This document shows, in pieces, positions 1 through 61,215 of a stretch of DNA of 61,215 nt. The position numbers and the translations under genes were made by a program. Numbering within the stretch: position 1 is the first letter of the stretch; each line of letters starts with the position of its first letter. The stretch lies in the NCBI RefSeq assembly GCF_009745975.1, contig NZ_WHOL01000120.1, positions 1-61,215 on the forward strand, read 5' to 3'. Under the pieces are notes generated by a model. It was not told the origin of the DNA. It ran no database searches and was given only the letters and a program-made list of their open reading frames with translations. The DNA comes from Actinokineospora pegani (lineage in GTDB: Bacteria; Actinomycetota; Actinomycetes; Mycobacteriales; Pseudonocardiaceae).

Positions 1-243
1 GCCTCCGGCCGGTTCGGGGTGACCTCGGAGTACCTGGTCAACGCCGACGACATCCAGATCAAGATGGCCCAGGGCGCCAAGCCGGGCGAGGGCGGGCAGT
101 TGCCGCCGAACAAGGTCTACCCGTGGATCGCCCGCACCCGGCACTCCACCGCGGGCGTCGGGCTGATCTCCCCGCCGCCGCACCACGACATCTACTCCAT
201 CGAGGACCTCGCCCAGCTCATCCACGACCTCAAGAACGCCAAC
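1..243 (+). repeat. Left terminal inverted repeat (inside gltB copy 1)
   Basis: The first 243 bases are identical, base for base, to the reverse complement of 60973-61215. Identity breaks at base 244, after which the two gltB copies match only at roughly 80-85 percent over the next stretch I compared. The repeat is coding sequence and has no mobile-element features. It may continue beyond the window edge. Confidence 0.95.
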
Positions 244-1734
244 CCGGCCGCCCGCATCCACGTGAAGCTGGTCGCCGAGGCGGGCGTGGGCACGGTCGCG
301 GCCGGTGTGTCCAAGGCGCACGCCGACGTCGTGCTGATCTCCGGGCACGACGGCGGCACCGGCGCCTCGCCGCTGTCGTCGATCAAGCACGCGGGCGGCC
401 CGTGGGAGCTCGGCCTGGCCGAGACCCAGCAGACCCTGCTGGCCAACCGGCTGCGCGACCGCATCGTCGTGCAGACCGACGGGCAGCTCAAGACCGGGCG
501 CGACGTCGTCATCGCCGCGCTGCTGGGCGCGGAGGAGTTCGGCTTCGCCACCGCCCCGCTGGTCGTCTCGGGCTGCATCATGATGCGCGTGTGCCACCTG
601 GACACCTGCCCGGTGGGCGTGGCCACGCAGAACCCGGCGCTGCGGGCGAAGTTCTCCGGCAAGCCGGAGTTCGTCGTCAACTTCTTCGAGTTCATCGCCC
701 AGGAGGTGCGCGAGTACCTGGCGGCGCTGGGCTTCCGGTCGGTCGAGGAGGCCGTCGGGCACGCCGAGGTGCTCGACACCCGCGCCGCGGTCGACCACTG
801 GAAGGCCTCCGGCCTGGACCTGTCGCCGATCTTCTTCGTCCCGGAGCTGGAGCCGCGCGCGGCCAGGCACCGGGTCGTGGCCCAGGACCACGGCCTGGAC
901 AAGGCGCTGGACAACACGCTGATCCAGCTCGCCGAGGGCGCGCTGAACTCCGGCGACAAGGTGCGCCTGGAGATCCCGGTGCGCAACGTCAACCGGACCG
1001 TGGGCACGATGCTCGGCTCGGAGCTGACCAGGCGCTGGGGCGGCGACGGCCTGCCCGACGACACGATCGACATCACCTTCACCGGCACCGCCGGGCAGTC
1101 CTTCGGCGCGTTCGTGCCCAAGGGCATCACCCTGCGGCTGGTCGGCGACGGCAACGACTACGTGGGCAAGGGCCTGTCCGGCGGGCGGATCACCGTGCGC
1201 CCGCACCCGGGCGCGCAGTTCGCCGCCGAGCAGCACACCATCGCGGGCAACGTCATCGGCTACGGCGCCACCGGCGGGGAGATCTTCCTGCGCGGCAAGG
1301 TCGGCGAGCGGTTCTGCGTGCGCAACTCCGGCGCGCTGGCCGTCGTCGAGGGCGTGGGCGACCACGCGCTGGAGTACATGACCGGCGGCCGGGTCGTCAT
1401 CCTCGGCCCGACCGGGCGCAACCTGGCCGCGGGCATGTCCGGCGGCGTCGGCTACGTGCTCGACCTGTCGGCGGTGCGGGTCAACCACGAGATGGTCGAC
1501 CTGGACCCGCTCGACGCCGAGGACGCGGACTTCCTGCGCGACACTGTCGCCCGCCACGGCGACGAGACCGGCTCGGCGGTGGCGCGCGCGCTGCTGGCCG
1601 ACTGGGACGCCGCGCTTTCCCGGTTCACCAAGGTGATGCCGAAGGACTACAAGCGGGTGCTGGTGGCGCGGGCCGCCGCCGAGCGCGACGGCCGCGACAT
1701 CGACCAGGCGATCATGGAGGCGGCGCATGGCTGA
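1..1734 (+). CDS. gltB: Glutamate synthase large subunit, C-terminal part (copy 1, 5'-truncated by window edge)
   Basis: This is the C-terminal third of the ~1500-residue glutamate synthase alpha subunit, which transfers the amide nitrogen of glutamine to 2-oxoglutarate with electrons supplied by GltD. The frame is open from base 1. The first in-frame GTG at 19 is internal, so the real start lies outside the window. The 3Fe-4S signature C-x5-C-x4-C has its cysteines at nt 574, 592 and 607, beside the FMN-domain motif [12 protein letters not shown]. The C-terminal beta-helix domain has the glycine-rich [11 protein letters not shown] pattern. gltD follows after 56 bp, so the two genes form the usual gltBD operon. 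A second divergent gltB sits at the opposite window edge. Confidence 0.95.
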
Positions 1735-1790
1735 CCGGCGTCGGACCTCCCCCATGACCCACCCGTTCGGAACCCAGGAGGTGTTCTGCT

Positions 1791-59440: not shown

Positions 59441-59481
59441 AACGCACCTCCGGACAACGGGCAGAGGAAGGAGACAGCCGC

Positions 59482-61215
59482 TCAGCCACGGGATGCCTCC
59501 ATGATCGCGGTGTCGACGTCGCGGCCCTCGGCGCGGGCGAGCCGCATGGCCTCGAGGACGCGCTGGTAGTCGCGGGGCATGACCTTGCCGAACCCGGCGG
59601 CCCGGCGGGTCCAGTCGCCGAGCAGGGACGCCGCCACCGGGGAGCCGGTCAGGTCGTGGTGGGCCTGCACGGTCTCGCGCAGCCACCTGAGATCGTCGCC
59701 GGTGGGCTGTTGCAGCTCGACCATGTCGGTGTTGACCCGCGCGGGGTCCAGGTCGAGCACGTAGGCGATGCCGCCGGACATGCCCGCGGCCAGGTTGCGC
59801 CCGGTCGGGCCGAGCACGACCGCGCGGCCGCCGGTCATGTACTCGAAGGCGTGGTCGCCGACGCCCTCGGCGACGATGACCGCGCCGGAGTTGCGCACCC
59901 CGAACCGCTCGCCGACCAGCCCGCGCAGGAAGACCGCGCCGCCGGTGGCGCCGTAGGCGATGACGTTGCCCGCGATGACCTGCTTCTCCGCGGCGAAGAT
60001 GGCCTCCGGGTGCGGCCGGACGATGATCCGGCCGCCGGACAGGCCCTTGCCGACGTAGTCGTTGGCGTCGCCGACCATGTCGATGGTGACGCCCCTGGGC
60101 AGGAACGCGCCGAGCGACTGGCCCGCCGAGCCGGTCAGCGTCAGCCGGACGGTGTCGTCGGGGAGCCCGTCGCCGCCGTAGCGGCGGGTGATCTCCGAGC
60201 CGAGCAGGGTGCCGACGGTGCGGTTGACGTTGCGCACCGGCAGCTCCAGCCGGACCGGGTGCGCGTCCTCCAGGGCTCGCTCGGCGAGCTGGACGATCGT
60301 GCGGTCCAGCGCCTCGGCCAGGCCGTGGTCCTGGGCGCGCACGCGGCGGCGGGCCTGGCCGTGGCGGGTCCGCGGCACGTCGAACAGGGGCGAGAGGTCG
60401 AGCCCGCTGGACTTCCAGTGCGCCACCGCGGCGTCGACGTCGAGCAGTTCGGCGTGGCCGATGGCGTCGTCGAGGGTGCGCAGGCCCAGTCCGGCCAGCA
60501 GCTCGCGGACCTCCTGGGCGACGAACCGGAAGTAGTTGACGACGTGCTCAGCCTGACCGGTGAACCGCTCGCGCAGCACCGGGTTCTGCGTGGCGACGCC
60601 GACCGGGCAGGTGTCGAGGTGGCAGACGCGCATCATCACGCAGCCCTCGACGATCAGCGGCGCGGTGGCGAACCCGTACTCCTCGGCACCGAGCAGCGCG
60701 GCGACGACGACGTCGCGGCCGGTCTTCATCGCGCCGTCGACCTGCACGGTGATCCGGTCGCGCAGGCCGTTGAGCACGAGGGTCTGCTGGGTCTCGGCGA
60801 GGCCGACCTCCCAGGGGGTGCCCGCGTGCTTGAGCGAGTTCATCGGGGACGCCCCGGTGCCGCCGTCGTGGCCGGAGATGAGCACGACGTCGGCGTGCGC
60901 CTTGGACACCCCGGCCGCGACCGTGCCCACGCCCAGCTCGGAGACCAGCTTCACGTGCACGCGGGCGTGCTCGTTGGCGTTCTTGAGGTCGTGGATGAGC
61001 TGGGCGAGGTCCTCGATGGAGTAGATGTCGTGGTGCGGCGGCGGGGAGATCAGCCCGACGCCCGCGGTGGAGTGCCGGGTGCGGGCGATCCACGGGTAGA
61101 CCTTGTTCGGCGGCAACTGCCCGCCCTCGCCCGGCTTGGCGCCCTGGGCCATCTTGATCTGGATGTCGTCGGCGTTGACCAGGTACTCCGAGGTCACCCC
61201 GAACCGGCCGGAGGC
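59482..61215 (-). CDS. gltB: Glutamate synthase large subunit, C-terminal part (copy 2, 5'-truncated by window edge)
   Basis: The frame is open to the window end, so the N-terminal two thirds lie outside. It is the mirror image of the gene at 1-1734. The 3Fe-4S motif [14 protein letters not shown] and the [12 protein letters not shown]-terminal pattern are intact. The first ~81 codons visible are identical at DNA level to copy 1, then similarity falls to that of diverged paralogues. gltD copy 2 follows after 41 bp. Confidence 0.95.
60973..61215 (-). repeat. Right terminal inverted repeat (inside gltB copy 2)
   Basis: Exact reverse complement of 1-243. See the left copy. Recombination between the two would invert the intervening 61 kb. 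Confidence 0.95.

Follow-up and report, generated by a model that had tools for sequence, protein, structure and literature searches.

The stretch of DNA analysed here (the window, 61,215 bp) is the entire contig C120 of a 128-contig, 6.44-Mb Actinokineospora draft, and its two edges, together with one end each of contigs C119 and C108, meet in one repeat formed by two old, diverged gltB operons. According to the account that we consider rather probable as a whole, the contig is complete, it stops on both sides at a two-operon repeat that the assembly did not resolve, the order is C119 - window - C108, and the middle of the repeat was merged between the two copies. The situation at the contig edges is largely ordinary: the gltB pair is also present in the relatives examined, with no sign of flipping at these copies.

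Both edges lie inside gltB, on opposite strands, in the same frame and at the same codon, with 3' parts of 577 codons each. Window 1-243 is the exact reverse complement of 60973-61215, and divergence sets in right after it, as had been claimed in the original prediction and as the exact comparison bears out. A local alignment of the 2.74 kb next to each edge, which takes in the tract, gives 77.7% identity. As assembled, the segment is bounded by inverted identical repeats. The features at the two edges are as follows.

1..243, + strand: exact 243-bp tract, left copy; lies within gltB-A and covers 81 codons of the Glu_synthase domain
106..151, + strand: B-like part of the left tract (PPNK, then STAGVG) in the clade A gene, through conversion or a merged bubble
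1..1734, + strand: gltB 3' part, clade A, with PF01645 and PF01493 in the left part; 5' part most likely on C119
1791..3257, + strand: gltD, locus A, 488 aa, with PF14691 and PF07992
57920..59440, - strand: gltD, locus B, 506 aa, GTG start at 59440; PF14691 and PF07992 on the longer ORF 57920-59686
59482..61215, - strand: gltB 3' part, clade B, paralogue assigned by blastp to complete relatives; 5' part most likely on C108
60973..61215, - strand: exact 243-bp tract, right copy; lies within gltB-B
61065..61110, - strand: counterpart of 106..151 in the right tract; B-type by the fixed sites and the residue pattern, in line with the clade of the gene

When the strain's own genome was searched, the complete tract turned up four times, always at a contig end: besides the two window edges, it lies at C119:40943-41185 (contig end) and C108:1-243 (contig start), and the missing 5' parts of gltB sit on these same two contigs. 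The exact overlaps at four contig ends favour one of the two options offered originally, namely that the contig broke off at a repeat which the assembler was unable to get across. The other option, a gene-conversion tract extending beyond the window, fares differently in its two parts. C119 and C108 differ at the very next base outward, so the tract is exactly 243 bp long and does not run past the window. Its identity, bounded by divergence on both sides, is one of the features expected of a conversion tract, and conversion is a possible source of it, in competition with an assembler merge (see below).

Both loci are ordinary GltB/GltD pairs. Among the GltB domains, PF04898 (Glu_syn_central) was found on C119 and C108, and PF01645 (Glu_synthase) and PF01493 (GXGXG) on the left part. 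Past the tract, the two GltB parts agree at 351 of 497 positions when the stop is counted. The left and right GltD are 57% identical; their predicted lengths of 488 and 506 residues were confirmed, the latter with the GTG start. After the tract, the left gltB has a mean identity of 87.7% to the A copies of relatives vs. 76.0% to the B copies, and the right one 84.2% to B vs. 77.7% to A. The 5' part on C119 belongs to clade A (0.839 vs. 0.713) and that on C108 to clade B (0.846 vs. 0.725). Over the whole gltB, A and B are 72-76% identical.

The pair is widespread among the relatives. Two gltB matches (PF04898) were found in each of 16 genus genomes, which rules out the single-gltB reading that had been named as a way for the original prediction to fail. 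Both genes lie on one contig in 10 of these genomes, convergent in nine and on the same strand in one (G003). Within a family sample of 120 genomes, 71 have two gltB and 49 have one. The complete copies of 14 genomes, a set that leaves out G000 and G013 with copies split between contigs, fall into two clades, A and B, and the clades of the 5' and 3' parts agree in all 14. There are, in short, two old gltB operons, A on the left and B on the right, convergent and ~60 kb apart, and the layout is kept in most of the genus.

One of the two genomes left out, G013 (L032, L033, L164, L165), likewise has both gltB interrupted by contig ends close to the tract. A tip of 54 bp is common to its 5' contigs, and its 3' contigs start at query residue 106; because the middle is absent from the matches found, this genome speaks neither for nor against conversion.

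The 243-bp identity exceeds what the relatives show. In the same 14 genomes, A-B identity over the homologous 243 bp ranges from 87.2 to 95.1%. No exact A-B run in their gltB is longer than 171 bp (G009), and 95 bp of that run fall in the tract stretch. The tract region also has the highest mean A-B identity of all sliding windows along gltB in relatives. Judged by that range and that longest run, an exact identity over 243 bp is more than chance or constraint would give.

It is the middle of the tract that distinguishes the paralogues. Sites 106 and 107 are fixed A/B differences in the 14 genomes, and 108, 110, 132, and 151 are near-fixed. All four contig ends are B-type at 106, 107, 108, 110, and 151; site 132 carries the letter that is commonest in A, which the B copy of G004 has too. 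On the protein level, all 14 relatives have PG(T/Q)K in the A copy and PPNK in the B copy; a second marker is less clean, with STPGVG in 14 of 14 A copies and STAGVG in 13 of 14 B copies. Donor-type letters at fixed sites, as conversion would leave them, are therefore seen in the assembly, though the same letters would result from an assembler merge. Either A was overwritten by B, or its middle was lost in assembly.

The contrast of PPNK (clade B) with PG.K is a possible paralogue marker. The residue pattern used for named loci matched all of the best 80. PG-type residues were present in all 40 of those at least 77% identical to the left copy, and PPN in six of the remaining 40. Overall, PG.K was observed in clade A and in 73 of the best 80 named actinobacterial-type loci, and the six with PPN belong to Amycolatopsis, Prauserella, and Actinokineospora.

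The outer parts of the tract are probably truly identical in both genes, with the middle of copy A lost through an assembler merge. Among 111 contig ends compared, exact 63-bp overlaps with differing tips recur at four junctions (C113/C117, C46/C124, C39/C86, and C36/C90), and this recurrence suggests an assembly graph with k near 63. Other shared contig ends measure 228, 241, 355, 359, 491, 526 bp and more, and there are shorter overlaps as well (24 bp twice and single ones of 28-59 bp). A constant 243-bp overlap as an assembly setting was ruled out, the shared ends varying in length. The contigs do not break at a 76-bp run shared within the gltB 5' parts or at a 115-bp run in tandem in the window, so repeats this short were otherwise crossed in the assembly.

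Shared runs flanking a short differing stretch have a shape that assemblers can merge as a bubble. Such a shape exists in G004, which of the relatives comes closest in these genes (best protein match of either copy, 89-91% DNA identity). Its A and B copies are identical over -10..83 (94 bp) and 152..243 (92 bp), around a 68-bp stretch (84-151) with 12 differences, and if merged, the G004 path would run over -10..243 and almost coincide with our tract. Two of the 14 relatives, G003 and G004, have this two-run shape with both shared runs of at least 63 bp. By analogy, the outer two parts of the tract would be truly identical in both genes of our strain, an assembler with k ~63 would have merged the short bubble between the two shared runs, and the middle of copy A (~106-151) would have disappeared in the merge; every relative's A examined differs from B there. 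Against this stands that a merge at k = 63 needs both shared runs to reach at least 63 bp in this genome, and that the 63-bp overlaps indicate k indirectly, with an overlap of 24 bp recurring too.

The strongest competitor is a real conversion, in which a gltB-B stretch of up to 243 bp replaced that of gltB-A in this species, leaving a perfect repeat that the assembler was then unable to get across; we regard it as possible but rather doubtful. The B-type letters listed above at the four contig ends, both fixed and near-fixed, fit with it, and so does the behavior of the paralogues in the genus. In a permutation test shuffling genome labels (2000 shuffles per window, 5000 per region; 14 genomes), A-B identity was higher within than between genomes in tract 1-105 (0.933 vs. 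0.897, p 0.0002) and in tract 169-243 (0.954 vs. 0.940, p 0.0046). The middle, 106-168, gave no within-genome excess (0.802 vs. 0.806, p 0.80), which argues against conversion. The rest of the gene showed a small excess of 0.004 in the 5' part (p 0.0010) and 0.003 in the 3' part (p 0.0068). The test makes no correction for codon bias that both copies of a genome have in common, and this bias may explain these small values, but hardly the 0.036 in tract 1-105. An excess was also found in windows ~670-710 codons upstream (0.012 and 0.017, p 0.0005), and the largest window values, 0.020 and 0.024, belong to two windows overlapping or just preceding the tract start. Moreover, the longest exact A-B runs in four of the 14 genomes (G009 171, G011 106, G003 100, and G004 94 bp) are above the between-genome maximum of 92 bp over 182 pairs; the 106-bp run of G011 is located elsewhere in gltB.

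Taken from these comparisons, the outer tract parts appear to have been homogenized across the genus by short patches exchanged between the paralogues, with the middle staying clade-specific. Since such exchange is supported in the genus, a true conversion is not far-fetched. On the other hand, PPNK occurs in the A copy of none of the 14 relatives, the letter at site 132 is the commonest A letter (though shared with the B copy of G004), and k ~63 accounts for the same letters without any conversion. That the A-type gene truly lost PG(T/Q)K in favor of PPNK by conversion from B, leaving a 243-bp repeat that could allow rare 60-kb inversions, can be proposed a shade more tentatively still. If true, a stretch that was kept apart in all 14 relatives, with flanks homogenized in several of them, was overwritten here.

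The favored reading, with a merged middle, also includes an order of the contigs, and synteny and the clade of the gltB parts both lead to C119 - window - C108 without inversion, joining A to A and B to B; for this strain, the order is deduced from the comparison with relatives. The segment was mapped in five genomes (matches of 500 bp or more). In four of them (G004, G008, G014, and G010), the window is collinear with the segment between B and A, and the DNA is C108-like on the outer side of B and C119-like on that of A. In the fifth, G003, ~14-16 kb around copy A are inverted; the breakpoints fall near 11.9-12.7 kb of the window and 36.5-37.3 kb of C119, not in gltB (L014, L173, L174).

The original prediction had also raised an inversion of the ~60-kb segment mediated by the inverted 243-bp tracts. 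On a reading of this kind considered here, the presence of both orientations in the population would have stopped the assembler. In the assembly, the tracts are indeed inverted and identical, and their sequence would let each outer contig join either edge. However, such an inversion would yield 5'A-3'B chimeras, none of which was found in the 14 genomes with complete copies; the inner segment keeps the same outer flanks in the four collinear genomes, and the single inversion seen breaks elsewhere. Other contig ends also stop in shared stretches of at least 228 bp, so no special cause is needed. The inversion is thus very improbable. Least credible, to the point of being negligible, is an identity produced by protein constraint and codon bias alone, with neither exchange nor merging: no part of gltB is more conserved than the one that holds the tract (A-B 0.872-0.951 in relatives), but none of the 14 relatives exceeds 0.951 and both copies here are B-type at sites fixed for A vs. 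B in all 14 genomes.

Apart from the gltBD loci, a Pfam scan of 39 translated stretches (E-value limits 0.001 to 1e-8) gave matches including serine dehydratase, serine hydroxymethyltransferase, glycine cleavage T-protein, and pyruvate kinase. A NIT/HATPase kinase gene adjoins DUF742 and ATP_bind_1 genes, a set that we take to be conservon-like; the conservon proposed for the segment has Pfam support for these three genes and is consistent with them. No sigma-factor match was present among the 39 translated stretches scanned, which are part of the window's ORFs. A tandem repeat with a period of 116 bp (2.2 copies, 97% matches) occupies 14849-15101, and a related-looking array with a period of 115 (2.7 copies, 80%) lies at 14219-14534.

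With short-read contig ends at repeats with merged bubbles, the present case shares the four ends lying in one repeat and the recurrent 63-base overlaps; here, the merge is deduced from the assembled sequence rather than from reads. It illustrates that what looks like a remarkable genomic structure can be a contig edge of a draft assembly, and that comparison with relatives can settle most of the matter. A conserved gltB pair with short homogenized patches and a distinct central stretch would, in turn, be a small testable case of selection against conversion.

Among prokaryotic genes, tuf and others are reported to undergo concerted evolution by gene conversion (PMC6053082). The likeness to what that text describes is that, in some parts of the tract, paralogues within a genome are more alike than between genomes; the difference is that only short patches are concerned here, whereas the paper states that it treats full-length concerted evolution. 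A term search of its main text found neither glutamate synthase nor gltB. Among the matches listed in a literature search, judged by title and start of the abstract, there was no report of gltB conversion, and a search for Actinokineospora with glutamate synthase returned no match.

Compared with the bacterial glutamate synthase GltB/GltD, the domains (PF04898/PF01645/PF01493 and PF14691/PF07992) and the gltB-gltD order are the same, in two paralogous operons. Nothing tested differs from that system, and two convergent gltB ~64-484 kb apart are usual in the genus.
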